DNA of 64,000 nt from positions 62,001-126,000 of the forward strand of contig JASANH010001308.1 in assembly GCA_030248295.1 (NCBI GenBank). Direction: 5' to 3'. The notes beneath the pieces were generated by a model. That model searched no databases and was not told the origin of the DNA. It saw only the letters and a program-made list of their open reading frames with translations. This DNA comes from Mesodorylaimus sp. YZB2_4. Lineage: Eukaryota; Nematoda; Enoplea; Dorylaimida; Dorylaimidae. This document shows, piece by piece, positions 1,453 through 62,260 of this stretch (position 1 is the stretch's first letter; every line of letters begins with the position of its first letter). The position numbers were made by a program, and so were the translations under genes.

Positions 1453-4400
1453 ATGAAATTGCGGTGTATATTTTTTATGGTGCTTGTCATTTCTCTATGT
1501 GTCTGCGGACAAGAAAGTAAGTCAGCTGCGCATTCTTTGCCCTGAGTCGGTTATCCCTGTGTAACAGTGTAATGTCGGGCAGGAAGCGAGCGACTGTCAC
1601 TGCACGGCCACACAGCAGTGGCATTTTCAGCACGACTGACTCATAATGCACGAAAGGGCACATTAAGCATGTAGGCACATCATGTGCAAATGGTCTTGGG
1701 CAGGAAACCCTGCATCAACAAAAAAGCAGACCAAAATCCGAGGATTGACGGGCCAGGCATTGGTAACGAGACGGGGGCGGCAAGGGAATTTTAAGTGCGC
1801 CGCGGATCACTATCACACCTACAGTAAATGTCATTGATGATCCCTATAAGAAAAATATTCTCCAGTGACTAGCTGACTTGTGACTGTGCTATTCGTTACA
1901 CCAATGGGTCTTCTCCAAGTACAGTATCTGCCGAGAAGTTAAAACTATTTTTCAGCTTGAACCTTCTGAAAATCACTCATTCACTCTTCCAGATCATATG
2001 CGATTGACAAAATCTGAATTTTGTCGACCCGCTTCTACCAATCCCTTATCCCCGCTGACGATGAGAGTATTTCTTTTTTTCTCTCTTTAGGTAGCGCAAG
2101 TCAACGGATCAGGCCTATATCGGATCCGGAATAGCGTTTGATCAAGTACCTGTTTGATGGCTCTTCTTATGACAAACGTGCTCGCCCTAGCATCATCGTA
2201 AATGGAACAAAGTTACCTGTGCACATCTCACGATCAGTTGAACTGGATCCCAATAGGATTATAGGTCTGGTAAGATGTTTAACACATACATGCACTTCGA
2301 CGAAAAGTATGCCCCCGTACTGAACATATACTGTATTTATGTAGGTTGCAGCCCGAAATGCCAGTACGCGCATCATACAGTACAACAATGCGTACACTAA
2401 ACTGCATCAAACCTGCAGTGGATCTGTCTAATACAACGCCTTGTATCACGTAGTGATTACTCTCTAATATTGTCTAGTCGAGGTTAGATCACTAACGGTA
2501 AGTCAGCACACTATTTAGACCAGATATACTGCAGTAGATGTCCATGTTTTACCCAATCACCAAGCGATGGTGAAGGGACACATCACAGTAGACACGAAAT
2601 GATTGATCTGACCACTAGTCGAACACTCGCCCGTAACTGCGCACCTGGCGTGAGAAGCTGACGCCTACCCACATCTGCAAGATCTTCGCATGATCCTATT
2701 GCAGGATGATCGCTTTGAGATCATGTCCATGTTGGTAGTGATATATGAACGATGGCCCGATCCACACTTAGTTTGGGATCCGAGAGAATTCGAAAATCTT
2801 ACAAACATCACATTCAAGTCCGACCAGCAGATCTGGACGCCAGTCACCTTATTTTCAAATATGTAGGCATGAGAGTAGTTTTCATGCTATCTTCATCAAA
2901 AGGTTTCAACTAGTGCTTTCCTCTCATTTTAGACTGACGAGAAACCGAGACGACCGAGCGGACCCTCCCATCGCCCACATTTACAAGAACCCCAAAACTA
3001 TGGTCCAAGAAGTCGGTTTGACTTCATCCGCTATTTTTCAAGAGCATTGTCATCTGAATATGGACTACTTCCCGTTCGACCGCCAGCAGTGTTTAATGTG
3101 CGTCAATAATCTTCAATATCGCAGTAAAGATTTGGTCTACGAAGCCGTGTATAAAAGAACTAGCGGTTTTCTACCCACTGGCGAATGGAGCTTGAAAGAA
3201 ATGTCCGTGCTCGATATGCAGGCTGAATCGATGAGCTTGGCATGTATGAATGTGACTGTGCAAAGGGCCTCGCTTTACTACGTCATCAACCTCTTTGTTC
3301 CTATCTTCGTCATCTGCGTCCTCAATACGATTGGCCTCTTCGCAGGGGTCATGAGCTATGACGATCACACCGAGCTGGATTTCGCGGCTCTGGGACAAAG
3401 CACGTTGCTTTCGCTGGGAGTTATGCTGTTGACAGTAGCAGAACAGATGCCAAGAGGATCAAAACACGTATCGGTAAGCATGGGTGCATGGGACTAATCT
3501 TGTGGCAGGGTGGGATTAGAGATTAGGGAATCATGACAGTGCTTGCCGAAATCCGTGCATCGAGCTGCCTATAATTGTGACAGACTGAATATCTTTGCGT
3601 TGGAAAAGATACCAGCAGGATCTGTTGGTCTCTTTAGGCAGCCCTCCTAGTTGTTGGAGCCAGAGACATCAACCTGACGGGTTTCAGCCTCGCCTGGAGG
3701 AGCGTAGCGAGCGGCCAGCGGAGGCAACTTATACGCTGTGCGCGGGGCCAGTCAAGGCAGCCCAGATATGCCGCCTTCTTCTCAGGCCAAACACACCTAT
3801 TACATACCCGTAATCAAACCAGAGAAGGTGTCACATGGGTCTCACCAAGCATTTATCAAGACTCATCCTGAGTAATCCTTACGTTACATTTTTCAGGTAT
3901 TTTCTTTTTGATCATGATATTCCAGACCCTGGCGGCTACAATCACGGTGGTAATCATGAAGCAATGGTATACTCGAGCCGAGAAATCAAGTACAACGTCA
4001 GATCTGAGACAAAGAAGACCTAATGCAAAGAAAACGTTTTGCGCAAGTGCATATGCCTGACATTTCATCTGACGATTATTATTGCAGCCACTGGATCTGT
4101 GGTGGCCATAGGATTTTTGAACAAGGCGGATTTTTTTATGTGAAATGACCATGCATTGTCATGTACATCCTAGCAGCTGCTTAGAACTGATGAAGGTACT
4201 GTGGCTAAGCATGAAATCCCCATTGATCTTCAGTCTAGCCTCTGCAGTCCCACTCTTATCTTCCAGCTAGCAAGCCAGTCTGATCTTCAAAGCTTCGATG
4301 TTGCAAATGACTTCTGTAAAACCACTTGCTCACTTATGTGCTTCTAGGCCAGACAAACCCCTAGGGGCCATTCATAAAGGTCGACCGCAGCCTAGGAGGG

Positions 4401-7400
4401 GGGGGTTGGCAAAAAGTGGTCAGGTGCGGTCGGGGGAGGGGGAGGGGTAGCGGCCAATGGTCGACCGCAGCAAATTTTTAGACTTTTGATGACAAAAAAC
4501 ACCTTTTATCTTCACCAGTAGTGCGCGTTCAAACCTTCAAACTTTTTGTCTTCTCTTCTCCTTGGTCGTTCATTCTCGATAATGCAATTTCGGCTTCATC
4601 ATGACTCTTATTCCCAACTGGAATGATATCTTATCCGAAAGGGAAAAGTTGGGAGGCGATGTCTAAGCTGATTATTGCGTTGATCCGCCTTTCTTGGCCC
4701 GCACCTGACCTGGGAGGCCGAGGTTCTATTCCGACGAAGGACGGAAGTTTAGTAGCTTGTCGTCGGCTTTGGACACCTGGCTCCGGGCGACACCACGTTA
4801 CTGTTAAACGGCGGACGCCCACCCAAGGAGCAGAGAATTGGGAAACTGTCTTCAAACACCAGTCGAGATGGTCCCCAAGCTAACGATAAGCCCCAGCCCC
4901 TTCTCACCCAGTATGCCCTCGTGTTGAGGTGCTCCCAGTGAAGACACACGGAGCCTGCCATGAGAGCTGGTCACCTCAGGGATAGGTCGGTATCACCTTT
5001 TTCCAGGATCGAGATCAGGGCAAGCCCAATCGGGATCGGGATTTTTTGTTTGAGGTCGAACAGTTTGCACGCACGAAGGAGATGAGTCTATTTTCCAGAC
5101 TGAAGCACACTTAAGTCATCCAGGTTTTTTAAGTTTTTTATTAGGTCGAGTTTCAGTCATTATAAATAAGCTGAAACTGATGAGCCGTATTTCCTCGAAA
5201 TTCTCCCCGCGGGAGAAATTTTTTCAAATGGGTCCCAGACGGGGGAGAATAACCAGAGGGGGGGGGGGGAGGATTTCCAAAGGGGGGATAAAACTCAAAA
5301 ATTTTCCAGGTGCCATTATAGAAAGATAGACAGCCTAAAGCTACCCAACAAGTACCGCCAAGTTTGTTTATTTCAATACTTCTCTTCCCGTATTCATGCT
5401 ACTCATAGCCGAATTCAATCAATATGCTATATGCATAATATATGCATATATAATGCATATAATATGCATAAGACGAAATATTTCACAAAACTGCGTTTGG
5501 AAGGGGGAGGGCGTCTGGCTGAAGTGGTCGACCATTTTTTAAACGGGGGGTTCGCGATAAGTGGTCGGCATGCGGTCAGGGGGAGGGGGGGTCAAAAAAT
5601 CGAGATTTTGCGCGGTCGACCTTTATGGATGGCCCCCTGCCATCAGTTATTGAAATCTTGACAGTCTCTGTTGGCCCCTCTGACAATCCAATTATTTGTA
5701 TTTCCGCTTGTATCCCAAAAACTTGTATTGACTCACTCAAGCGCCTTGAAGATTACGTGTTTCGTGCATTTTATCGTCAGCTTCACCGACTGATTATTTT
5801 TGGTGATCTCAACGTCGATTTTTTGTCTGTTTCTACCGCAAATACGCACTTGCAAAATTTCATTTTTTCAATTGGTGGTGTGCAGACTGTCAGTGAACTA
5901 ACCCGTTTGGCAAAATCGCTGTTGGATTTGGTCATAATTGGTGATAAATCAAAACGTGACTACACAACGGTTCGCCCGCCGATCTCTACGTCAGACCACA
6001 ACTCGATTGAAGTTTCGTATTTGGGCTGTTCGACGAAACGGCATCAAGATGAGCGCACGATTTGGTTCATTAAACGGGCTGATTGGGATAAAATTAGCAA
6101 TGAATTATAGGCGAAGAATTTGCCTGGAATTATCAAAAATGCGGCCACCGTTGATGACGCTTGCGCAAAATTTACATCAGTGATTTCTGAGATTATATCA
6201 AGAAATGTCCCGCAAAAGGTGGTAAATATGGAAACGCGTAAGCTGTGGATATCCCGTGATCTACTCTCTCTTATCAATGCCAAGAATGAAGCTTATAAAA
6301 ATTGGAAATCCACCGGTCAACAATGCGATCGTTCTCGATTTATTGGCCTTTAAAAGCGTTGTCGGAAGGAAATCCGTCTGGCAAAATCGTCGTTTATTTC
6401 TGACAGTTTTTCCAAGTGCAACTCAAGTGCTGACTTCTGGGCAAATTATCGGCGCCTTGAGAATCGGGACAGTTCTATTCCAACCCTATCCAATGAATTC
6501 GGTCAATTGTTTATCGGCTCTGGGCAAAAAGTGCAGGAATTAAATGATCGTTTCTCACAAAACTTCAGCAAGCAAGATTTTGGCCTTTTTTCCCTGCCTC
6601 CTGCTGATCACGACGATTCAATGGATTATTCAATATCTCCCAAAGGTATTGGCAACGAAATCCGGCGATTAAAACATAATTCTGCTCCTGGGGATGATGG
6701 AATCACGGTCGAAATACTGAAACGTATTGTAAAATCGATTTCGTTGCCGCTGTCACCCCTAAGCAATCGGATTATGGAATCGGGCATTTCTTCTCGATTT
6801 GGAATGCGGCCAAAATTATTGCAATACCGAAATCCGGAGAAAAAATTTTGTTTGGTCTTATCGTCCTATCTCATTACTACCAGTGTTTTAAAAAATCTGT
6901 GAAAGCCACATTCAAAAAATGCTTGGCCGTTTTCTGCGTATCTCGCCCAATCAATTCGGTTTTGTGAAACGTCGTGGCACTAACTCGGCACTCATCGCGG
7001 TCTCGCAATTCATTCATAATCGGTTGGACGAGTCAAAGTTTGGAAACGTCGTTGGGATATTTTTGGATGTTAAGAAAGCTTTCGATCGTGTTCCCCATGC
7101 TCCTCTGCTGAGATCCCTTCAATATCACCATATATTACCGCAAAAATTGTTGTCCATCGTCCACTATTATTTATCTAATCGAAATCAATGCGTTGCAATT
7201 AACTCAGCGAGGTCAGGGGCCATCCATAAAGGACGTCCACCAAAAAAAACGCGTTTTTTTGACTCCCTCTCCCCCTATCCACCTTCCATCCATTTCGCCT
7301 TGACCCCCCCCCCCCCTTAAAAATGGACGTCCAATTTAGCGGACCCCCCCCCCTTCCATAGCCCATATTTATTCTAAAAAAGCATTAACCAATCCGCCGA

Positions 7401-9843
7401 AATAATGGGCATTCGTCTTCAGTCTGATCCGACTGCTGCTCTGCTGCATTGGCAAGTTATAATTTTTCGCCCTCTCTGCTTGCACATAATGTCTAATATA
7501 CTACATACAATTGATAAATCATAATTTTGCTCGCAAATTGGTGTAGAGTCCCGCTTTAGGTGCATGTTAGTTCTGCTGAGTTTTCGAAGTAGGCATAGAC
7601 AGTGACAGCTGGAAAGCAGGCTCGCAGGAGGGTAGGTTGGTGAGGGTGTAGCCCCAAAGATGCCTCCCTTTGCTTTTATGTCTGATTTCTTGAAGCATCA
7701 GCCGCATCGAGATTGTGATCCACGCCGAGGGTCGGATCAGTTGATGCTGGCACTGCTCAGCATCGCCTCTGGCGTCCAAAAGACGGAACAAATAAATGTA
7801 TTGATCCTCCTCTCTGCCAGGTTCAACCAAACCAAGAAACCAAAAATGCATTGATCAAGCTTTCGCAGCTGACGACCAGACCATGATTGAGCCAGGATCG
7901 AAATAAAACGCAGCTTTCCTGCTGCTAGTCAGGATGGACCAGTCAAGTTGTTGCAAAGCTCAACAGCTTGTTCAATTGCAGTGAAGATCAAGGGACACCC
8001 ACGATAACTCCTAGCTTATAATTGTCCTTTCACTAGAAGCTTTTAACTAACAACTTTTTTTATTTTCGCACTGTCATTCAGTGTGAAATGATGCAAGGCA
8101 AGCGGGTTGGTCCTGGTTCGGTTCGGTCTGGTTCAGTGTGGCAGGCTTGACGGCGGTAATCGATCTTAGTATCGTGGTAAAAACTGGAATATAATCGATC
8201 TTAGTCACCCGACGAAGAGTCTTTGGATCGACGCTTGATGATTCTAAAATATTAGTAATTAGAACCTTTTAAATAATGATAATAATGATTTGCAAATTTT
8301 CCGAGATATCTCCCACCAATTTTGTAAAGTGGACGTCCACTTGGCTTGCCCCCCCCCTCTTCCATCCACTTCCGTTCACTTTCCGATGACCCCCGCCCAC
8401 CCTCCCCCCTTCTATGGTGGACGTCCTTTTTGGATGGCCCCTCAGGACGTTCGACCGTGACCACTGGAGTTCCACAAGGCTCAATTCTAGGCCCAACCTT
8501 ATTTAGCTCGAACGTCGACCCGATTTTGGAGGTTTTTGCATCGACCTTTAGCGGGGCCAGATTATTTGCATACGCTGACGACTTAGTTCTCCTCGCTGCA
8601 GTAAAAAATTTGCTGGAAGCTGGTCAACTGTGCCAATCAAAAATTGATTTTGTGGATTAATGGCTCTTGGATTTCAGAATCAATCAATCATCAGAAAATA
8701 AGTCCCCGAATCACCGAAAAAGGAAAACCCCAGAACCCCAACAAGACCACCCACAAAAAAAACCCCCCCCCCCAGAAAAATGTGGGTGGCATCGCTTTCC
8801 GACCGCCGTGAATATTTGAAATTACTTCAATTTCATAAGTTTCACCATGGATTTCACGACTACAATAACTCAAATTTTATCCACAAATCGATTTCTGGTC
8901 AGCGTTTTAGTCAAAGAAATACTGCAAGTCATCATTTGGTGCTGCCGAAATCTCGAACGGTCTCTTACAGACAGTCTTTTGAACATTCTACAAAGATTTT
9001 ATGGAATGACTTGCCAGAAGATATCGCCTTATCATCATTGCGTGTTTTTATGACGAATATTCGTTTTAAGTCTTTTTCTGTGTGACATCTGTTTTCTTTT
9101 TTTGTTATATGTCTTGTCCGTCAGTGCGCTTTGGCTGCTTGGGATTGCAGTGAAGTAAGAACTAAGAACAAGAAGTTTACATGATCTCTTGACGGTATCA
9201 GAGCAAACTCCGAAAGGATCTGTCACCGTGTCTGAATACCACATACCATACCGAAAGGATTCGGGATGGTATTTGATTCAGCCACTGGTTTTTAGTCTTT
9301 TGTGAATTGCATTCTGAATCCCTGCTTGCCTGTTAGCTGCGCCATAAGCCGCATTCTTTGCTGGGTTTAAAATTCGAGAGCGTCAAGATATCAAACCATA
9401 GTAATCTCTAGCTGGACGTCGATCCTCTATGAGCTTCAAGGCTAACCAAAAGCACGACTCTGCGTCCACGAGTGCTGCATTCCTAACTCTCACTCGTATG
9501 TTTATGCAACATTCCACATCGTTTACAACTTAAATTTCTATTGATTCTAGGCATCTTTTTCCTCGCCATGATATTCCAAACACTTTTGGCAACATTTACA
9601 GCAGTGTATTTGAAAAAATATCTTCGGCGACTGGAGAACTCACCGCCAGGTCCAAAAGCACAACTAGCTAAAATGGCTGGGAAACGGTGGGCGGATGGCT
9701 GCATGTGGATTGATCTGATTCTGATCACAGCTATCACGGCTTCTGTCATCGCGATTGGATGCATTCACAAGGCGAACACAGGGCCAGTTGTGCACTGGGT
9801 ATCAGAAGATGTTCGTGCATGTGATACTGATACTTTTAGCTAA
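1453..9843 (+). CDS. Cys-loop ligand-gated ion channel (nicotinic-type receptor subunit), with in-frame stop in exon 2
   Basis: Five exons fit by phase: 1453-1516 (signal peptide beginning MKLRCIFFMVLV), 2091-2269, 2705-2862, 2933-3483 and 9551-9843, giving about 414 residues. Visible marks are an N-terminal helix like EERL..LF..YD.RARP, the WxDxxLxWDP segment, a Cys-loop with 13 residues between cysteines (C-HLNMDYFPFDRQQ-C), TM1 (YYVINLFVPIFVICV), TM2 (STLLSLGVMLLTVAEQMP), and TM3 and TM4 in the last exon. The donor at 3484 (GTGCAT) is chosen over GTAAGC at 3474 because only it keeps the phase and the family spacing between TM2 and TM3. There is no vicinal Cys pair in loop C, so this is a non-alpha or divergent subunit, and the TM3-TM4 loop is very short, about 30 residues. 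Codon 2132-2134 is TAG exactly where the family has Glu, so the gene is a pseudogene, a polymorphic allele or carries a sequence error. The last intron (6 kb) contains a spare terminal exon and nested transposons. Confidence 0.8.
3655..3775 (+). repeat. Dispersed repeat, copy 1 (second copy near 24475)
   Basis: The stretch beginning AGACATCAACCTGACGG, with GAGCGGCCAGCGGAGGCAAC further on, aligns loosely with 24475-24545 (AGACATCAACTCGACGG, then CGAGCGGCCAACTTACAAGG). The family is unidentified. Confidence 0.4.
3897..4144 (+). pseudogene. Decayed alternative TM3-TM4 exon of the Cys-loop receptor
   Basis: A TTTCAG acceptor at 3891-3896 precedes a TM3 reading that starts IFFLIMIFQTLAATITVV, parallel to IFFLAMIFQTLLATFTAV of the exon at 9551, and it joins exon 4 in the same phase. 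This frame stops at 4058-4060. A TM4-like piece (IIIAATGSVVAIGFLNKAD) follows from about 4057 in another frame, matching LITAITASVIAIGCIHKAN downstream. It is therefore a duplicated terminal exon carrying a frameshift. If spliced it would give a receptor lacking TM4. It could be decaying, or a rarely used alternative exon with a sequencing indel. Confidence 0.7.
4364..5636. mobile_element. Non-autonomous TIR DNA transposon, palindrome GGTCGACC family
   Basis: The left end reads GGGGCCATTCATAAAGG and the right end is the reverse complement of GGGGCCATCCATAAAGG; both continue inward into GGTCGACCGC. The palindrome GGTCGACC occurs twice at each end (4379, 4459; 5526, 5614), about 80-90 bp apart, within G-rich flanks. 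Flanking trinucleotides are CTA and CTG, a possible imperfect 3-bp duplication. No transposase frame is visible. The interior (about 4690-4980) carries a dispersed repeat also seen near 13360. The ends recall PIF-Harbinger/IS5-like elements whose termini begin GGGGxxxTCCATAAA, but that assignment is from memory. Confidence 0.7.
5637..9180 (+). mobile_element. Degenerate non-LTR retrotransposon (LINE), endonuclease plus reverse transcriptase
   Basis: The element is split by a DNA transposon at 7216-8441. Frame 5637-6110 carries the end of an apurinic-type endonuclease (FGDLNVDF and SDHNSIEV motifs). Reverse transcriptase motifs follow: SAPGDDGI near 6690, QFGFVKRRGT near 6955, LDVKKAFDRVPH near 7066, then after the insertion GVPQGSILGP near 8467 and FAYADDLVLL near 8566. 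A C-terminal tail with SFEHSTKILWNDLP ends at 9085, typical of CR1/Jockey-like LINEs. Several stops and frameshifts and a deletion near 8660-8780 make it dead. The 5' part is missing where it meets the TIR element at 5636. The 3' end (about 9180) is approximate. It lies in the last intron of the receptor gene, on the same strand. Confidence 0.85.
7216..8441. mobile_element. TIR DNA transposon inserted in the LINE, palindrome GGACGTCC family
   Basis: Both ends are GGGGCCATCCAxAAAGG followed by GGACGTCC-containing sequence: a 26-bp terminal inverted repeat with one mismatch. The element is flanked by TCA on both sides (7213-7215 and 8442-8444). Reading across with one TCA removed restores the LINE frame (ARSG joined to RSTVTTGVPQG), which marks the exact insertion. 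GGACGTCC occurs twice per end (7231, 7325; 8331, 8419), the same plan as the element at 4364-5636. No transposase is visible, so it is non-autonomous. Confidence 0.85.
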
Positions 9844-13359: not shown

Positions 13360-13590
13360 CCGTCGCTGGCCTTGCACACCTGCCTCTGGGCGACTCGCCA
13401 ATTTGGCGAGTGGCGGATGCCGGGCGAGTAGAGAATGAGGAAATTGGCTCTCGAACAAGTCGGGAAGGTCCCCATTCTCGCCCAGTATCGTCGTGGCACG
13501 ATAATGCTGGCACAGGATGCCATCGTGTGGAGGTGCTCCTAGTGTAGACACACAGAGGAAAGCTGGTCATGTCACGGTTGCGCCTGTCAT
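13360..13590. repeat. Dispersed repeat C, copy
   Basis: Segments such as GTGGAGGTGCTCCTAGTG, AGACACACAGAGGAAAGCTGG and CCTGCCTCTGGGCGACTCG recur with changes at about 4760-4970, 21419-21655, 28095-28165 and 50545-50880, in both orientations. No coding frame and no end structure is clear; it may be the body of a SINE or MITE family. Confidence 0.5.
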
Positions 13591-21418: not shown

Positions 21419-21655
21419 ATAAGCAAGGGCTGTGCGGGACCGGCACACACAGAAGCTTCCCTCTGCGCGTCTCCACTAGGAGCACCTCCGCGCGAGGGCA
21501 TCCTGGACAGCACACCGACTTCCTCGGACAATGGCGGGGGGGGAGCTTTGAACCCTGCCGGTGTTCGACAGCCGAGACTGTCTTCTCGTTTGGCTTCCGT
21601 CTCTCCACTCGGTGCACCTCGACGGTACCGGGTGAGTCACCCACGGCCTGGCGTG
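21419..21655. repeat. Dispersed repeat C, copy
   Basis: The order CACACACAGAAGCTTCCCTC, TCTCCACTAGGAGCACCTCC and CCGTCTCTCCACTCGGTGCA, then GGTGAGTCACCCACGGCCT, parallels 50545-50880 in the same orientation. It directly abuts a minus-strand SINE at 21656. Confidence 0.55.
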
Positions 21656-22973: not shown

Positions 22974-23948
22974 CTATCCAACTTCTGCAAATGGCACTGT
23001 TGCTATTCTTCCTTTATTCCCACGCCCCATTGCTCCAGTGGTCGGAAAAGAGGGCTCAGCATTTGTGGAATCGGCGATACTTTTGCACCGAACGAGTCCT
23101 CTCGCCTGATGACGTATCTGGCTATTGAACCCGACATACACAAAAGGGTGCACACCAATGGCCGCTATGTATAAAACACTACTTAGCAAATTCCACCATT
23201 TATTCGATGATAATAATGGGACGATGGTGAAACCCAATCCAAACGTGATTATCAAACCAGCTACCAGAGCTGATTGCAAGGCCAGCCGCACATCAGATTT
23301 CTGCTTGTTTTCAGACTGCGACAAAGAACTGGGATTGGCCGCATTGCGCGCCGTTCGGACTTTCTTGAACACGAGTCCATAGCACACGACCAGGGTGAGG
23401 AAAGTGACCATATTCGATGCCCTGTCGTACCACACGTACACTGCATTGCCGTCCAAGTCCAGGTCGTAGCCGAAAGTGTAATCAGCCTCGAAATATCTCA
23501 GCGAGCAGCACGGGGTCATTTGAGCAATGGCGCTTGTGATGCCGTACACAAGGCAGCCGAATATAATAATCTTGATCTTTCTCTTGTCGTGGACTTTTTT
23601 CGACAATGTTTTCGAGCAAATTGCAAAATATCGATTCAAAGCGATGTTGCACAGGAGAGCCAGGCTGGTGAAATAAGTCATGTTGCACAGTGTGCCACAG
23701 AACAAAGCATCGAAGGAGTCGCCGAATGGACTTCGCTGGAGAAAAGTGGCTGTGGTTGCGTAAAATAAAAACAGTCCCAGCATCGTGCTGTCACTGATAC
23801 CCAGTGCGAACAATAAAAGATAGAACGGATTCTTTGTAAGTTTACGAACTCTATAAATCGCTGCTGATGCTACGAGATAAGGAAAAAAGGCAGCTGCTGA
23901 TAATCCAAGGATGACACAGGCTGCTAAAATGTCGTCTTTTGACGGCAT
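22974..23948 (-). CDS. Srx-like 7TM chemoreceptor, copy 1
   Basis: A single exon of 324 codons with seven hydrophobic segments. Marks include KNPFYLLLFALGISDSTMLG in TM2, an extracellular Cys before TM3, ALNRYFAICSKTLSKK after TM3 (in place of the rhodopsin DRY), MTPCCSLRYFEADYTFGYD, and a TM7 ending HPFVYVGFNSQIRHQ. Loop and motif order fit nematode serpentine receptors of the Srx type, which are G-protein-coupled chemosensory receptors. The frame is open upstream to an ATG at 23984, but the other two copies start at MPSQDD, so the start is placed at 23948. The core is almost identical to copies 2 and 3; the last 35 residues differ. Confidence 0.85.
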   Translation of the reverse strand: MPSKDDILAACVILGLSAAAFFPYLVASAAIYRVRKLTKNPFYLLLFALGISDSTMLGLFLFYATTATFLQRSPFGDSFDALFCGTLCNMTYFTSLALLCNIALNRYFAICSKTLSKKVHDKRKIKIIIFGCLVYGITSAIAQMTPCCSLRYFEADYTFGYDLDLDGNAVYVWYDRASNMVTFLTLVVCYGLVFKKVRTARNAANPSSLSQSENKQKSDVRLALQSALVAGLIITFGLGFTIVPLLSSNKWWNLLSSVLYIAAIGVHPFVYVGFNSQIRHQARGLVRCKSIADSTNAEPSFPTTGAMGRGNKGRIATVPFAEVG

Positions 23949-26050
23949 GATTGACCAATCAGTTGTCGACTTTGCGTCGAACACTTACAATTGACCACCC
24001 ACCAACGCCTAGAATTGACTGTACTTCGAGCGAGCTGTGATTTAGGGCTCGGAAGAACCAAAGAATAGATTTAGCCGCAGGAAATTTACGAACTGAGAAA
24101 AATATAAGAAGAAATAATTTAAAAAATGGGGAATGACGCAGCAAAAATATACAATATACATACAAGCGTAAAATATACAGCTACATGGGTATGCACATAC
24201 AAGACTTGACGTTTGGGAATTGTATGTGTAGACTCGAAAATTAACCAGATAAGCCGGACTCAAAGTCACTGTTCTTACACTGGTGAACGCCAGAGTGTTA
24301 AGAATCGCGGAAGATTAAACTTTGGAAAGAAAGAATAGGGCATGCGGGGACCTTTTCTAGCAACAGATATTCTTATGTAACAAGCTGACTCACACCTCAC
24401 ATTATTGAAGAAACCGAGGTGAGATTATTGGCCTCACAAACATTTTCGTCATAGCCTCCTCGTCATAAAAGCCCGAGACATCAACTCGACGGTTTATGCG
24501 CAACCTAATGGAGCTCTTGTCGAGCGGCCAACTTACAAGGCAGACTGCTCTATGTTTTTAGAAGGCCAGGAGGCAACCAACGTTATCTTCTCTGCAGACC
24601 ATGGTATTTGACCGCCTTAGCTCCTTTCTCCCATGCGGCATCTTAAACCAACCTCTAGCTATGAGGGACTGCATTGTTTCGCCTCGTGCACCAGCGTTTG
24701 TTGGCGGCCAGGATATCGATTCTTTCCCTCAGTCAGCCAGGAAACATCAGACCAATCAGTTCGTCCACAGATTATTCCCGTGAAGAGATTTTCAAGTCTG
24801 ACAGATTGGCTAACTCGTGCCTGTCAACCTTTGCGTGCTCTGCGACATCAGGCAGTCTCTGGAGCATACCCTGTAATGACAGAAATTCAATAGGGTTTCT
24901 TGTAAGAAATGTTTGACTCCTAATAGAAGTCGACAGTATGAACCGAATTTTAAAATAGTGACTGGAGACTCCGAAATAAGAATCTATGCAACAGTTCCTC
25001 TGAGCACCGTGAGCTGTGGTCGCTCCTCACCTTTATGTCTTTCCATTATACTCTATTCAGGTTTTATCAGTCGCTGGTGAGCTCGACCGCAAATTTGCTT
25101 AGTTTGCTTCAGAGCGGTTTTGGGAGCCAAAGATATCTTAGCAAGACATGCTATGATTACCGCATGAAATAGGCCCTCATTATCCTTAGCCATCACCTGC
25201 TCAGCTAAAGATAGGGAACACCCGAAATCTCAGGACATGTCAAATCGCATCTTATGCCCCTGATCTACGAACGTCCTGTTTTGGGCGTTCTTGCAAAATT
25301 GATCGTGAAAGGCACCAACAGTTGCATGCAAGTTTATGAAGGGTCAGAAAAGCAAAGGATGCTCTCATATTGACCGCCAAAATGCTGGTAAATTGTTTTC
25401 CTACGGCTGGACAAGGTGCCTTTTGATCAAGGGGATGTGAGCGCTGATGCGAAATTCAGGCTAATTACAGAAGGATCATGCATACCTGCTTCACATAGAC
25501 TAGTGATGACTGAGTTCTCTGTGCACCAGCACTAGGGAAAAGAAAAATACAAGCAGAAATAAGAAATTCAGATTTCCCAGAGTGAAATTCTCGACGACTG
25601 AATCAGACGACGACAATTCGAGAACTAATGGTTCTGTTAACTGCTACCGGATTTTCGAAGATAAATAAGACAGTTGCAAAAAAGATCTGGTATTGAATGG
25701 AAGCGGAGCTGCTTGGCTGCAGTACATTAGTAAAATAGGAGAGTTTCAAAGATTTAGTGAGATTTAAACAAATTGCACCTTTGAATGAACTGACTGGGCA
25801 TGGTGCTCTGGAAACCCATTAACTGCAGTACCTTAGCTTTAAAAAAGTTAGGTTTTGGTTAGTACTCTGACCTAAGCAGGATATACGCGGTTGCACTACC
25901 ATCTATGCACGTAATTATTGGGTAATGGGTTTGTGATACGACATCCGGATGGTCAAGAGAACACAAGATTGGGGACAGTGCACGCAGCAAGTGGCTCCGT
26001 CATTTCAGGCAGGTTTTTAGCGCGAGAAGTGCCTTGTAAGCCATACTTTT
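23949..26050. other. Gene-poor DNA between receptor copies
   Basis: No gene is supported. Around 24475-24545 there is a second copy of the dispersed repeat seen near 3655. The rest is AT-rich with scattered short frames and no splice-supported exon. Confidence 0.4.
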
Positions 26051-31274: not shown

Positions 31275-32249
31275 TTATCCAACTTCTGCGAATGGCATTG
31301 CTGCTATTATTCCTTTGCTACCACGCGGCATTGGACCAGTATTTGCCGCCGAAGGCTCAGCATTTGTGGACTCGGTGATACCTCGGCACTGAACGAGTCC
31401 TCTCGCCTGATGACGTATCTGGCTATTGAACCCGACATACACAAAAGGGTGCACACCAATGGCCGCTATATATAGAACACTACTCAGCAAATTCCACCAT
31501 TTATTCGATGATAATAATGGGACGATGGTGAAACCCAATCCAAACGTGATTATCAAACCAGCTACCAGAGCTGATTGCAAGGCCAGCCGCACATCAGATT
31601 TCTGCTTGTTTTCAGACTGCGACAAAGAACTGGGATTGGCCGCATTGCGCGCCGCTCGGACTTTCTTGAACACGAGTCCATAGCACACGACCAGGGTGAG
31701 GAAAGTAACCATATTCGATGCCCTGTCGTACCACACGTACACTGCATTGCCGTCCAAGTCCAGGTCGTAGCCGAAAGTGTAATCAGCCTCGAAATATCTC
31801 AGCGAGCAGCACGGGGTCATTTGAGCAATGGCGCTTGTGATGCCGTACACAAGGCAGCCGAATATAATAATCTTGATCTTTCTCTTGTCGTGGACTTTTT
31901 TCGACAATGTTTTCGAGCAAATTGCAAAATATCGATTCAAAGCGATGTTGCACAGGAGAGCCAGGCTGGTGAAATAAGTTATGTTGCACAGTGTGCCACA
32001 GAACAAAGCATCGAAGGAGTCGCCGAATGGACTTCGCTGGAGCAAAGTGGCAGTGGCTGCGTAAAATAAAAACAGTCCCAGCATCGTGCTGTCACTGATA
32101 CCCAGTGCGAACAATAAAAGATAGAACGGATTCTTTGTAAGTTTACGAACTCTATAAATCGCTGCTGACGCTACGAGATAAGGAAAAAAGGCAGCTGCTG
32201 ATAATCCAAGGATGACACAGGCTGCTAAAATGTCGTCTTGTGATGGCAT
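31275..32249 (-). CDS. Srx-like 7TM chemoreceptor, copy 2
   Basis: A single exon of 324 codons. It differs from copy 1 at only a few core positions (for example ATATL for TTATF in TM2-TM3, NITYF for NMTYF, VRAAR for VRTAR), and more in the C-terminal tail after IRHQARG. All seven membrane segments and the NRYFAIC and TPCC motifs are intact. There are no internal stops, so it is likely functional. Homology with copy 3 continues about 40 bp upstream of the start codon. Confidence 0.85.
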   Translation of the reverse strand: MPSQDDILAACVILGLSAAAFFPYLVASAAIYRVRKLTKNPFYLLLFALGISDSTMLGLFLFYAATATLLQRSPFGDSFDALFCGTLCNITYFTSLALLCNIALNRYFAICSKTLSKKVHDKRKIKIIIFGCLVYGITSAIAQMTPCCSLRYFEADYTFGYDLDLDGNAVYVWYDRASNMVTFLTLVVCYGLVFKKVRAARNAANPSSLSQSENKQKSDVRLALQSALVAGLIITFGLGFTIVPLLSSNKWWNLLSSVLYIAAIGVHPFVYVGFNSQIRHQARGLVQCRGITESTNAEPSAANTGPMPRGSKGIIAAMPFAEVG

Positions 32250-37578: not shown

Positions 37579-38553
37579 TTATCCAACTTCTACAAATGCC
37601 ACTCCTTTCGTTCTTTCTCCGATACCACGTGTCGTTATTGCAGTAGTTACCATTGAAGGCTCGGCATTGGTCGACTCGATAATACTTTTGCACCGAAGGG
37701 ACCCGGCTGCCTGATGACGTATCTGCATATTGAAACCGATATACACAAAGGGGTGCACACCGATGGCCGCTATATATAGAATACTACTCAGCAAGTTCCA
37801 CCACTTATTCGATGCTAATAATGGGATAATTGTGAAACCCAATCCGAAAGTGATCATCAAACTAGCTACCAGAGCTGATTGCAAGGCCAGCCGCACATCT
37901 GATTTCTGCCTGTTTTCAGACTGCGGCAATGAACTGGGATTGGCCGCATTGCGCGCCGTTCGGACTTTCTTGAACACGAGTCCATAGCACACGACCAGGG
38001 TGAGGAAAGTGACCATATTCGATGCCCTGTCGTACCACACGTACACTGCATTGCCGTCCAAGTCCATGTCGTAGCCGAAAGTGTAATCAGCCTCGAAATA
38101 TCTCAGCGAGCAGCACGGGGTCATTTGAGCAATGGCGCTTGTGATGCCGTACACAAGGCAGCCGAATATAATAATCTTGATCTTTCTCTTGTCGTGGACT
38201 TTTTTCGACAATGTTTTCGAGCAAATTGCAAAATATCGATTCAAAGCGATGTTGCACAGGAGAGCCAAGCTGGTGAAATAAGTTATGTTGCACAGTGTGC
38301 CACAGAACAAAGCATCGAAGGAGTCGCCGAATGGACTTCGCTGGAGAAAAGTGGCTGTGGTTGCGTAAAATAAAAACAGTCCCAGCATCGTGCTGTCACT
38401 GATACCCAGTGCGAACAATAAAAGATAGAACGGATTCTTTGTAAGTTTACGAACTCTATAAACCGCTGCTGATGCTACGAGATAAGGAAAAAAGGCAGCT
38501 GCTGATAATCCAAGGATGACACAGGCTGCTAAAATGTCGTCTTGTGATGGCAT
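37579..38553 (-). CDS. Srx-like 7TM chemoreceptor, copy 3
   Basis: A single exon of 324 codons, the most different of the three copies. Changes concentrate in TM6-TM7 and the tail (VASLMITFGLGFTIIPLLA, YIGFNMQIRHQAAG), while TM1-TM5 are nearly identical to copies 1 and 2, even at the nucleotide level. The frame is intact with no stops. The function is presumed to be chemosensory G-protein coupling, as for the others. Confidence 0.85.
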   Translation of the reverse strand: MPSQDDILAACVILGLSAAAFFPYLVASAAVYRVRKLTKNPFYLLLFALGISDSTMLGLFLFYATTATFLQRSPFGDSFDALFCGTLCNITYFTSLALLCNIALNRYFAICSKTLSKKVHDKRKIKIIIFGCLVYGITSAIAQMTPCCSLRYFEADYTFGYDMDLDGNAVYVWYDRASNMVTFLTLVVCYGLVFKKVRTARNAANPSSLPQSENRQKSDVRLALQSALVASLMITFGLGFTIIPLLASNKWWNLLSSILYIAAIGVHPFVYIGFNMQIRHQAAGSLRCKSIIESTNAEPSMVTTAITTRGIGERTKGVAFVEVG

Positions 38554-44161: not shown

Positions 44162-46885
44162 ATGGCGCTGTGGTGTCTCGTGACATTGCTAAGTTTCGTC
44201 ATTAGCGCGTTTGGTGATGGGAATGGTTTTGGTAAGTGGGGACGGTGCTATTGAATTGCCTTTATTGACAAAGTCTCTTATTCAGTGGAAGAAGTAGCTT
44301 GCACTGGCTCATCTATGACCATTGTTGTCAACAAGTCAGACCCTGATGTGATCAGGTGGATACGCGATCCCGCAGCTCGACCCATCGTTTACGTATATGG
44401 TCACAAAGACCGTACACCATGCGGCATGGCATTGAAAACGAACATTTTATTGGACAATTCGTCCTCGTCCGTCACTTATAACTTTACCATCCCCTACGGA
44501 CCAGCCTGTTCTGTCTACTTGGCTGATTTGGTAAGTACACTTCCTTGTGAACATTTGGACTGGGGTTACTGTCACCGCCAGGCGGCCATCACGAGATGTC
44601 CTGAGCCCGGCAAGCGAGGATTGTCTGACCATTGTTTCAGGAACCAAGCTTCCAAACTGCAGAGACCACGGTGGCGATCGAGAACAATGCTCAATTCGAC
44701 TCATCCAAAGGAGGTATTCGTATCAATCATGTGTTCTGCCTGTACACGAAGCAAGTGGAGACTCTGCGTATTAGCGACGTGTCCAAGTATGGCTCGTCCC
44801 CTTCCCCTCGTGCCGATCAACAGACTTCTCTCATCTTATCATTCTTTCCAGCGGACACGAGGTTGTGGCCAGTGTCGGCGGCAAACCCAAACCCAAAGTG
44901 CAGATGTTATTTCGAGATCCTGATGGACGTCCATTGAAAGCTGCCAAATTCGGAGATCCAGTCGGCTTATACCTGATGCTTTCACCTGACAGTGAGCTTG
45001 GATTATTGGATTTTTATGAGTCATTCAGGTTTTCAGAATTGCTCATTAGGAATAGCATTTGACGGGAGGGAAACATGTCGCGTGACTAAAAATGGGGGGT
45101 CGAAGATAATGCTGGCGATTCATCACAAGGTTTCTCGTTATAGATGCATATAAAGCCATTTCGCCAAAGCATTGTCTATTTTCTGATCGAGAAGAGATGG
45201 AAGAGCCCGATGCGAAGACTCTGACATTCGTGCAGAGCAAGTACGTGAGTCCCTCATCTGCATAGAATTAATTCCTTGTCTTCCATGTCATGTCCTCATC
45301 AAAAACATTTCTCAATCAATCTTTAAAGGCACAGAATGCCTAGCACTGTAAAAGGCACACTAGAAAGCGCGAAACCAAAGTAGTGCACCCCTGATTTAAA
45401 ATGATTACAGTACCCCACATCAGCGTCAGTGCGATCTATGGGCCTCTCAGATCACGCGAGCCGTACCCAAGACCACCACGAACAGTTTGACTCTCAAGAA
45501 TCATCTATTTTCAGCTGCCCAGTAACGGAACTGAGCGAAGTTATTCGGCCTGTGAGTGAGCTCAACGACGAAGTTTATTTCACCCACTTCCAGGCATTCC
45601 GTTTCGGAGAGCGTCCCACAGTGTATGCGCACTGCAAAGTGGAAGTGTGCCTGGAACAAAACGGTTGCGCAAAGGTACGTAACAAAGGGGCCAAGGAGCG
45701 GAGTTCCCCAAAAACCACGTGCCACATGGGCACCCTGAGGGACGAGCAATAACGGTACCGTCCGTCTGTCCTCTGCCTGTTATGTAACGATTAGACATCT
45801 GTCTGTCCTTGAGCGTATTGTGGGGCCATGGAAATGGCGATGGATTAGGCATCTGGGATTAGGCATTTTGGTAGTGAGCATATGGTTTTCACGGATGGCT
45901 CGTTCTGTACATTATCGTTTCCTGAAAAAAACTTGTTTTTCTCCGCTAGCGATTTTCTAATGTTTTAGAAAAACTGCTATCCGAAAGTAGTCAACTCTAC
46001 ATTGGCGGCCGAGGCCGCTAGACTTCGCTTGCGTCGAGGCGCTTCTGGTGGATCGATGTCTACATTGAGAAATCTCAATGAAGATGGATCACCGGGAGAA
46101 GAAATAGCTCTGAGCAATGCGCTTACTGTCTTGGATCATCGACAGTCTGTTGAAGGTATGCAGTATGCCTGGTCCTTACCGTTAGGCCAAACGTGACTGT
46201 GATTGCGGTGGCCGGTGCTTCTGGTTGATGTCCATCCACCTCTTACTTGGGCTGATGAGCTACGGCAGTCACATTCTTACTGTAGCCACCGAATATAAGT
46301 GCACCACAATTGCTTGTGGACAGCTCCACTTATTTCTCATCCATAAATACAGGGAGGCTGTTCTGTATAGGGGATTCCACATTTGAAAACGGCTCACCTT
46401 TCTTTTCAGTAGTGGGAAAAGCGACTGAAATGTGCCTCGATCAGCGCATCTATCAAGGCCTATTCCTAGTGATCGGCTTCTTGGTCATGCTGCTCATTTT
46501 GATCCTGGTCCTCATGTTCCACTTGGTCCGAAAACTGCGGCAGTATAAGAAAACGGCTATCGCTGCTATGAACCTGCCTTCGGTCTATTACGCTTACCCC
46601 TCTCACAGCCAGAGCATCGCCAGCAGCCGTACCCTCCCTTGTCCTTCGGCTTACCGACAAGTATCTCATCGCGTTCAACCGACCTCCACCTATTCACCGA
46701 CTATGAGCGGTCGTGGCGGATTCCATGGTTCGGCGCCCGATTTTGGCACATTGCATACCGAAAGCGTTACTGACGCAGCGACAGTCACCACTTCGACTGG
46801 CACTGGATTACCCAGGACCGGATACTTTTCACCGCTGTTGATCACCGATGACCACGCTATACCACGCGTTCGAAATTCGCAGTAA
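44162..46885 (+). CDS. Cuticlin-like ZP-domain transmembrane protein
   Basis: Eight exons in matched phase: 44162-44231 (signal peptide MALWCLVTLLSFVISAFG), 44286-44530, 44641-44786, 44852-44991, 45144-45240, 45515-45674, 45969-46155 and 46410-46885, giving 506 residues. The middle is a zona pellucida domain of the nematode cuticlin type: FCLYTKQVETLRISDVS, VQMLFRDPDGRPLKAAKFGD, NAYKAISPKHCLFSD, and TLTFVQS followed by NCPVTELSE, then VYAHCKVEVCLEQNGC. A dibasic RLRLRR follows and may be the consensus furin cleavage site that frees the ZP part. The last exon gives one membrane helix (LFLVIGFLVMLLILILVLMF) and a Ser/Thr/Tyr-rich cytoplasmic tail. Cuticlins polymerise outside epidermal cells to form cuticle structures such as alae. 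The exact member cannot be named. Confidence 0.92.
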
Positions 46886-59922: not shown

Positions 59923-61177
59923 GCTGCTGATGCTGGTGATTGGGCTGCAATGTGGGCGAACGTCGATTGAAAGGTGTCTTTACTTTTTAGTGACCTATGC
60001 AACAGTCTCTGGACGAAGGGTTGTTTGACTCTGCCTCTCGCTTAGGTGATGCGAGTACCGGAAGGTGATTAATGGTTCCGTCCAACAGGGCTTCGGGTTA
60101 AGAGGCTATACAAACAAATGCGACGTGACTCGTCTCATGCCTCGAGTTGGCAAGCCATTCCATCCTGCTTATGTTCGTAATTTACGTCCACTCGAGGGTG
60201 ATACGACATTGCGCACGAAATGACTTGCTCGGCCGCAAACCTAGCGTGAGAGGCAGGCGCCTAACCCACCCAGGAGCCCGGCAATGCCCAGACTTGCACC
60301 TGGGTGGTGAATCATACAGGATCTGAGACGGCAGACGCCTGTGCCCCCCAGGCCGGGACTAACTCCTAAGCATGTCGTATACTGATTACGTAAGGATTTA
60401 GGTTTCCTTACTCGTCATGGGCTGCTCCCTTCACTCTGCCTTACGATCGTTGGGTCTATTGGACTTGCTGATGCTCCTTGGATTTTCTAACTGATTCGCG
60501 AGCATCAGGCACTGCTGGCCCAGTGCTGACCTGTAACGATTAGACGGCAAATGAGCACGAACCGAATTACAGGGGAGAAAGCTTTTGAGATTACTCCATC
60601 TTTAGTGTCTTTTCATTCCTCACTTAGGTTTGTCTTGTCTGGTGCTGTTCATGGAAGAAAGTGAATGTCATTGCCACTTAGCAAGGTCATTCCTATTACC
60701 TCTCGCTGCTAATGGGCCTCGTTACCCAAATTACATGGCCCGTGCCTTTTGCTTCTCGAACTCGTTTCTAGATTTTATCTCGAAGAAATCTCTCACTTTG
60801 GTCCCGAAGATGCTCGTTTTCTTTTATAAATCGCATTTCTAATCACCTGCCCACACATTCTGAAACGCTAATGAAAGGCAGCAGTTAATGGCAGCTTGCC
60901 TTCCGACTCTGAAATTATCACCTCACTGCAGCTATGTGGCAAACTACCAGACCAAGGCGTGAAGAGTAGGAGGGAGTGCTATGCCACCCCTGACCTCGCA
61001 CACGGGATTCGAAAGACTGGCGCTACCTTGACAACGGATGAGTTAGGACAATGCCTTGGGCTCACTAATGACATGCGTATGACTGAGGGAGCACTAAACG
61101 ACCCTAGCGCGTCTTTGCCTTTGCTTAAGCGGAGAAGGGAAGGAACATTGTCTGGAAACATCCTTGAACTTATCGAA
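59923..61177. other. Intergenic DNA with a SINE remnant
   Basis: On the minus strand, 60190-60290 shows a decayed family-B SINE 5' end (the reverse complement reads GTTAGGCGCCTGCCTCTCACGC). The frame leading into the 7TM receptor stays open from 60896 to 61177, but it lacks membrane segments and may be 5' untranslated sequence. Confidence 0.4.
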
Positions 61178-62260
61178 ATGAATAACAGCAGTGCACTAAC
61201 GATAAGCCATGGCTTGTGCGAACAAGCAAAGAGGATCACGGGTACTCATCAAATGACCATCATCTTGGCTTTGGAAATCGTCTTTGGTGTCTTCGCTGTA
61301 TTCCCTAATCTGCTCACTATAACTTTACTTTGGCGTGTTAGAGTATTTCATTTGAATCTTCGCCTTCTATTGGCTCATTTCAGTGTCGATCTGACACTCT
61401 ATTCGATCACCCTCGCTGAAAAAGCCCTTCGTCGATTGGTGACCCCGGTGTGTAAGTTAAGCATGTATTTGCGACCATGTATTGCGGCCGAATGGGCCTA
61501 TACTATACCACTGCACAATGCTATGCTGGCATTGGTGGTTCTTATAGTGGAACGGTTGTACGCCACAGTTCGATTTGGTGGTTACGATCACGGGAGCAAG
61601 TATCCTTACTGGGCTGTGGTCCTGCTGGCTTGCTCGTGGGCGAGTACTTTGGCAATACAACTCTCAAATTACGCTAGTACACCAGAGGGCGTTGTGGTTC
61701 CTGTATGCGAAATCGGCTTGCTAGCAAATCCATCTCACATGGGTTCAGTTATTGCTACATTCGTGTCATTGGAGAGCGTGGCTACTGTCTTGATCGTATT
61801 CATATTCATCTATAATCGAGTCTTGTTACGTCGAATGGGCACGAATCGTTCTCAATTCAATTTGTCCTCACGTTTTCAAGTAGATCAGAATGTCAGGCTC
61901 AATGTGGCTCTACTCCCCTCCGCTATCCTGCACATCATCTGCTACTTACCCAACTACGTGTTCTTATTCTTCACCTTGATCAACTCCACACCGGGATACG
62001 TGGAGACACGGGCCTGGCTCGTGCATTTGTCTTTTCTTTGGCGCATTTTCTTCGCTTGTGTACACCCTGTCCTCTTGATCACCTTAAATCCGAATTTGAA
62101 GAAGGAATATCGCAAGAATAGGCTAGGTCGCTGTCTCTGTCATCTCTTCGGATGCCATAAGATGAACAAAGCTGTAGATGCAGTCGTGAATAGTACTCAT
62201 GTTACGAGTGCCCATTTTAGGTATCTGGAGAAAGCTTGGGGTGTTATGGGGCAGAACTGA
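61178..62260 (+). CDS. Sra/Srab-like 7TM chemoreceptor
   Basis: A single exon of 360 codons from the ATG at 61178 (MNNSSALTIS, a glycosylation site before TM1). Seven hydrophobic segments follow. Marks are TIILALEIVFGVFAVFPNLL in TM1, LALVVLIVERLYATVRFGGY at the end of TM3, LLRRMGTNRSQFNLSSRFQV in the third inner loop, and HPVLLITLNPNLKKEYRK after TM7. The ER.YAT motif and the LSxRFQ..N loop match nematode Sra/Srab/Sre-like serpentine receptors, which are chemosensory GPCRs. The frame is open 282 bp further upstream. It is not closely related to the Srx-like trio. The subfamily name is tentative. Confidence 0.8.
   Translation: MNNSSALTISHGLCEQAKRITGTHQMTIILALEIVFGVFAVFPNLLTITLLWRVRVFHLNLRLLLAHFSVDLTLYSITLAEKALRRLVTPVCKLSMYLRPCIAAEWAYTIPLHNAMLALVVLIVERLYATVRFGGYDHGSKYPYWAVVLLACSWASTLAIQLSNYASTPEGVVVPVCEIGLLANPSHMGSVIATFVSLESVATVLIVFIFIYNRVLLRRMGTNRSQFNLSSRFQVDQNVRLNVALLPSAILHIICYLPNYVFLFFTLINSTPGYVETRAWLVHLSFLWRIFFACVHPVLLITLNPNLKKEYRKNRLGRCLCHLFGCHKMNKAVDAVVNSTHVTSAHFRYLEKAWGVMGQN

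Follow-up and report, generated by a model that had tools for sequence, protein, structure and literature searches.

Half-site differences shared by both ends of two putative sister transposon families in the nematode Mesodorylaimus

Introduction

A transposase whose specificity changes needs every one of its scattered binding sites to follow, and how the two change jointly is an open question. It is raised by two neighbouring elements, A and B, in a 64,000-bp stretch of the genome of Mesodorylaimus sp. YZB2_4, to which we refer as the window and whose positions are used throughout. According to the original prediction, the elements belong to two related families that have a common end design, with a different palindrome in each family and two copies of it per end. 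Here we compare A and B with each other and with their copies in the genome, and we consider what changed between the two families and what may have caused the change.

Results

Element A (4364..5636) and element B (7216..8441) are non-autonomous transposons with terminal inverted repeats, of the GGTCGACC and GGACGTCC type, respectively. The boundaries and sizes predicted earlier (~1.27 and ~1.23 kb) were correct, the measured lengths being 1273 and 1226 bp. The tips of both elements are GGGGCCATYCATAAAGG. The inverted repeats of A, at 4364..4388 on the plus strand and 5612..5636 on the minus strand, are 25 nt long and 96% complementary; those of B, at 7216..7247 (plus) and 8410..8441 (minus), form a pair with 91% agreement, whose measured length of 33 nt counts one flanking base on each side. 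B is bordered by a TCA target site duplication (7213..7215 and 8442..8444), and the flanks of A, CTA and CTG, are an imperfect 3-bp duplication. A pattern of the ends in which the core of the palindrome was left free matched four times in the window, against 0.01 matches expected.

The sequence at 5637-7215 and from 8442 onwards is a remnant of a non-LTR retrotransposon (a weak endonuclease match, and RVT_1 with E 4e-9 in 6919-7215) that is split by B. Its reverse transcriptase frame is broken by B and, read by eye, seems to resume beyond it with TGVPQGSILGP. B sits inside this remnant and is thus younger than that copy of the retrotransposon. A 45-bp stretch of A (4909-4953) recurs at 13513-13557 and 21461-21506 (87% and 80%), a hint that A includes part of another repeat. 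Elsewhere in the window, three uninterrupted Srx-like chemoreceptor frames that closely resemble each other lie on the same strand (22974-23984, 31275-32249 and 37579-38553), and a Sre/Srab-like frame lies at 60896-62260; these receptor families would fit a nematode or another ecdysozoan.

Both families are numerous. A search of 145 Mb with up to two mismatches returned 541+530 A/B ends, and the reversed-pattern control returned 1+0. Over long matches, A copies among the 40 scored of 1518 candidates share 90-93% identity with the window element; among the 40 scored of 578 candidates, B copies are 75-83% identical over near full-length matches. The median pairwise K2P distance is 0.111 for 14 complete A elements and 0.129 for 13 complete B elements, and these 27 elements range from 1.03 to 2.04 kb. 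No transposase domain was found by Pfam in the ten longest of their 84 stop-free stretches, in which the lone match was Dsh_C with an E value of 0.005, weaker than the cut-off. Three further loci (L052, L051 and L046) have one end with no partner nearby, and look truncated or deleted. A search of element A against plasmids gave no match, and the pattern GGGSCCRTCCATAAANNACGT had 0 matches in viral contigs.

Identical 3-bp flanks border 19 of the 27 two-ended elements, against 1.48 expected when the flanks are re-paired; the other eight are without an exact 3-bp duplication, and a 4-bp duplication was seen in none of the 27. The duplicated triplets are ATA, TAT, ATG, TAA and nine others, and the middle base is A or T in 15 of 19. 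The 3-bp duplications are the signature of an insertion process without a strict target rule.

Duplications of exactly 3 bp with weak specificity, as measured for A and B, resemble those of Zator, which makes weakly specific 3-bp duplications and has a PF07592-type transposase. The palindrome and cassette plan described below is not known from Zator. Zator has been related to the bacterial TP36 group (PMC7386202, PMC12239620). It is possible, though somewhat unlikely, that A and B belong to Zator and depend on an ISAzo13/TP36-type transposase for their movement; this would be compatible with the interpretation that we favour below. No PF07592/ISAzo13-type transposase was found in this genome: the PF07592 profile had 0 matches in a search in which no positive control matched either, and the NF033519 profile had a single match (E 0.59), which lies inside a DUF7869 frame without A/B ends. 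This DUF7869 frame, at L056, also matches PF07592 weakly (Pfam, E 0.018). Altogether, no autonomous partner with A/B ends was found with the PF07592 and NF033519 profiles, at 18 DUF7869 loci or at four PF13359 loci, and the autonomous source may have been lost, may be rare or may be absent from the assembly.

The palindromes are placed in the same plan in both elements. In A, GGTCGACC lies at 4379..4386 (outer left), 4459..4466 (inner left), 5526..5533 (inner right) and 5614..5621 (outer right), and in B, GGACGTCC lies at 7231..7238, 7325..7332, 8331..8338 and 8419..8426. Base composition predicts 0.68 occurrences of each in the window; there are four of GGTCGACC, all in the ends of A, and five of GGACGTCC, of which four are in the ends of B and the fifth is at 44925. 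The spacing is 80 and 88 bp in A and 94 and 88 bp in B, and in the consensus ends the inner palindrome starts 82-88 bp past the outer one. The predicted design, with its two palindromes per end and one type per family, was thus borne out, with a spacing of 80-94 bp. At every site the two palindromes differ by one changed letter per half, and both halves of every consensus palindrome stay symmetric across the differences between A and B.

The same two types recur throughout the genome. With a free core, 100 ends listed of 1071 comprised 64 with TCGA, 23 with ACGT and 13 decayed ones that were one or two changes away; the other 14 of the 16 possible palindromic cores were absent among these 100, and the random variation of the palindrome named in the original prediction as a refuting case was not seen among the listed ends. 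Since the outer palindrome served to assign each end to A or B, the inner palindrome and the cassette are the free tests. We looked for inner sites, with one mismatch allowed, in 73 ends that extend inward by 200 bp or more: 62 of these ends gave 63 sites, and the other 11 gave none. All 63 match the outer type (39 TCGA with TCGA, 24 ACGT with ACGT, 0 crossed), which agrees with the expectation of one palindrome type per end, although this count, like the 100 of 100 given below for the cassette, mostly restates two or three family ancestors because the copies are not independent. Compared with other homopolymer-free windows of its own family, the inner palindrome does not clearly stand out in conservation: it outdoes 12 of 14 such windows in the G-rich end of A and 35 of 41 in that of B, and 8 of 34 and 6 of 39 in the respective C-rich ends.

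Between the palindromes lies a block to which we refer as the cassette. Its limits were set by eye at 4398..4447 and 5545..5592 in A, both with the G-rich strand on plus, and at 7265..7316 and 8349..8394 in B, both with the G-rich strand on minus. The G-rich or C-rich setting that had been noted around the palindromes is indeed present, but the two ends are not mirror images in this respect: within a frame that is inverted, the cassette is directly repeated, and one and the same strand carries the G-rich sequence in the left and the right end. When the left end is compared with the reverse-complemented right end, the cassettes agree at 50 of 60 positions in A (z 4.3) and at 55 of 59 in B (z 6.1), and they are more similar within than between families.

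The cassette carries single half-sites of the kind that form the palindromes. Consensus sequences were built from 86 ends with 160 bp of inward sequence (36 A C-rich, 19 A G-rich, 15 B C-rich and 16 B G-rich). The core of the A cassette is AAGTGGTCrGCwTGCGGTC, with two GGTC half-sites 10-11 bp apart, found in the window copy at 4418 and 4428 on the left and at 5563 and 5574 on the right; the B core is AAGTGGACGGAAGTGGAT or near it. The cassette was recognised in 65 of 86 ends. Among these, 38 of 41 A ends have GGTC as their first site, and 22 of 24 B ends have GGAC (10) or GGAT (12) there. As their second site, 39 of 41 A ends have GGTC; in B it is GGAT in 15 of 24 ends and GGAC in none. In the window copy of B, the half-sites are GGAT in the left cassette and GGAT and GAAC, neither of them GGAC, in the right one. 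A GGAC followed by G that turned into GGAT through CpG loss could explain the GGAT form. A genome pattern for G-rich ends in which either T or A was permitted at the variable positions gave 82+85 matches (control 0+0); by eye, the 100 listed of these 167 comprise 73 with TCGA then GTGGTC, 27 with ACGT then GTGGAC and 0 crossed, a pairing that covers G-rich ends and is subject to the kinship of copies mentioned above, and no hybrid palindrome is among them. The prediction of two families in one frame stands, and the unit that differs is a half-site with one changed base, a difference that extends into the cassette.

Between the palindromes, the word GGTC/GACC occurs 2.5 times per C-rich A end (0.35 in shuffled sequence) and 1.84 times per G-rich A end (0.34). 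It is also above shuffles between the B palindromes (G-rich 0.81 vs 0.28, C-rich 0.53 vs 0.21), where an enrichment of GGAC/GTCC is not clear (0.5 vs 0.5 in G-rich and 0.53 vs 0.32 in C-rich ends).

The ends of A and B can be aligned end by end. In the stretch between the palindromes, 54 of 72 positions agree between the G-rich ends of A and B (z 4.7) and 60 of 75 between their C-rich ends (z 9.3), whereas z lies between 0.4 and 1.3 for the remaining four end pairs, read inward. A and B also agree in the inner flanks of their C-rich ends (z 3.8), but not in those of their G-rich ends (z -0.6). The sequence beside the outer palindrome is specific to each end and still alignable between A and B. 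These comparisons suggest that the common ancestor of A and B probably had two ends that differed from each other. Since the alignment holds end by end, the change between the GGTC and GGAC half-sites took place in parallel at both ends, and a simple duplication of one end would not explain the pattern.

One further end bears on how firmly a palindrome type is bound to its surroundings. Of the 16 ends inspected that have no G after AAA, most are decayed A/B ends, L088 and L092-L094 look like chance matches, and L085 is new. L085 is a third, single-copy end built to the same plan. It reads GGGGCCATCCATAAATGACGTCCGCAG; its inner GACGTC follows 87 bp further in, and its G-rich block contains TGGAC. 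It combines the next letters of A (CGCAG) with the core of B, and the palindrome type is thus untied from the neighbouring sequence. Within 3.9 kb of L085 we found no partner end. The ends at C39, C40 and C96 look like further ACGT-type subfamilies. Among the seven frames beside L085 (L097), one had a weak Pfam match, C2_PACS_N (E 1e-4), and is probably a host gene.

In our view, these data probably, if not securely, reflect two sister families in which the preference of a binding protein shifted and the sites followed, leaving two recognition systems. A and B would be non-autonomous cut-and-paste DNA transposon families derived from one ancestor. A dimer, of the transposase or of a helper protein, would bind each palindrome and read GGTC in A or GGAC in B, and the cassette would contribute single half-sites about one helical turn apart. 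The two palindromes of an end may bring the half-site cassette into one complex, and the tip GGGGCCATYCATAAA may be recognised by the catalytic part. Once the families had separated, the preference of the binding protein for the third base would have shifted in one lineage, and the sites there would have followed, namely the eight palindrome half-sites and at least one cassette half-site per end. The outcome would be two recognition systems in one genome, and of the causes considered for the half-site switch, a change in the binding protein is the most likely.

The pattern might also have arisen with the specificity of the protein unchanged, from inherited founder sequences together with conversion or exchange between the two ends of one element, an origin that we consider rather unlikely. 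The greater likeness of the cassettes within than between families fits such exchange, as do the inner palindrome at both C-rich ends, whose conservation is not raised, and the GGTC words between the B palindromes. Conversion confined to palindrome, cassette and palindrome could explain the end-by-end pattern. However, such a tract must convert these three parts and yet spare the sequence between and beside them, given that the neighbourhood of the outer palindrome and the C-rich inner flank are end-specific and alignable between A and B, and every consensus palindrome has kept its two halves symmetric in spite of the family differences.

As in A and B, PIF/Harbinger ends start with GG, and PIF/Harbinger and PHIS groups and Tourist-like MITEs are similar to A and B in having 3-bp duplications and non-autonomous copies. 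A and B could thus be MITE-like PIF/Harbinger (PHIS) elements whose palindromes are sites of a Myb-like helper, which would again be compatible with a shift in binding preference, but this is unlikely. In its favour, the genome has at least 152 matches to PF13359, and, according to PMC2836001, Harbinger ends are bound by a second, separate DNA-binding protein. Against it, the triplets do not follow the target rules given in PMC4482050, which are TWA for PHIS and CWG, ANT and TNA flanked by C and G in sister groups: among the 19 triplets, TWA occurs 3 times, CWG once, ANT 0 times and TNA 4 times. A/B ends were also absent from the three PF13359 loci fetched of 152, and a PF13359 domain as an element's own gene inside A/B ends was not seen in the four loci looked at.

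An A copy on C344 (L098, C344:42700-46700) does contain a PIF/Harbinger transposase gene, and this gene was considered as the autonomous partner of A. Of the other copies of its family that extend to that side, most start next to TAA at query base 10-18, which is where A stops, and two on C196 already start at query base 1, 12-14 bases before this point. We read the gene as a nested insertion from its own, separate family inside an A copy, given that most family copies start at the break with A, and we rejected it as the partner. Short copies with both ends of the L098 Harbinger family were observed on C13, C39, C97, C138 and C216.

It is very unlikely that A and B are members of the genome's DUF7869 transposons, one family of which, family C, has ends (GAGGGGCTCCATGCATAAAGGTCATATGTGAC) resembling those of A, with GGGGC in common with A and B followed by CATAAAGGTC, and GGTCATATGTG repeated inside, since family C duplicates 4 bp (AACT, AATT) and none of the 18 DUF7869 (PF25273) loci has A/B ends within 1.5-kb flanks. 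This also led us to reject as a source the five loci with A-like ends; an isolated GGACGTCC is present at one of the 18, which include several transposon families. DUF7869 looks like a DDD transposase domain, in line with the weak PF07592 match of the L056 frame, and we take it to be possibly the transposase domain of Sola; the word DUF7869 is in none of the literature matches listed. DUF7869 frames adjoin GAGGGGCTCCATGCATAAAGGTCATATGTGAC ends at L066:896-3229, L068:872-2522, L072:791-2441, L069 and L071, and two of these loci show the 4-bp duplications, AACT or AATT. The DUF7869 element at L075:1626-6395 (C291) has 167-bp inverted repeats that are 87% alike, with TTAA near both ends. At L073:601-2226 (C158), a DUF7869 frame runs for 542 aa without a stop and gives a weak DNA-binding match of the RFX type (E 4.5e-5, below the cut-off); inverted repeats were not found at this locus.

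Discussion

The kind of element to which A and B belong, non-autonomous cut-and-paste transposons, is already known; the half-site switch together with the direct-repeat cassette is a variant of it. A search of the literature with the A/B end sequence gave one match, which is unrelated, and no description of a concerted half-site switch with a direct-repeat cassette was found in the literature matches listed. Several known systems share part of the design. CACTA/EnSpm transposons have 3-bp duplications, many subterminal sites in both ends and CACTR termini; A and B are like them in the first two respects, and unlike them in that their termini are GGGG. In bacterial REP/RAYT systems, the palindrome type follows the transposase type. 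REP palindromes (PMC2817692), like those of A and B, are palindromic signals scattered as non-autonomous units. Unlike A and B, these systems are bacterial and use tyrosine transposases, so that the analogy is one of logic and not of kinship.

A bolder form of our interpretation would be that A and B form a so far undescribed lineage of transposons that has a transposase of its own, and that one base switched symmetrically in at least ten half-sites per element, giving a natural pair of recognition systems for which L085 and the ends at C39, C40 and C96 would be possible intermediates. We regard this stronger claim as quite improbable.

In summary, both states of the half-site are present in one genome, in hundreds of copies with alignable ends, with a defined half-site change and possible intermediates. 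The end plan, consisting of inverted tips, palindromes and a direct-repeat half-site cassette, is a concrete model of a protein-DNA complex. Once the protein is known, the order of the changes and the cross-mobilisation of the two families will be testable.
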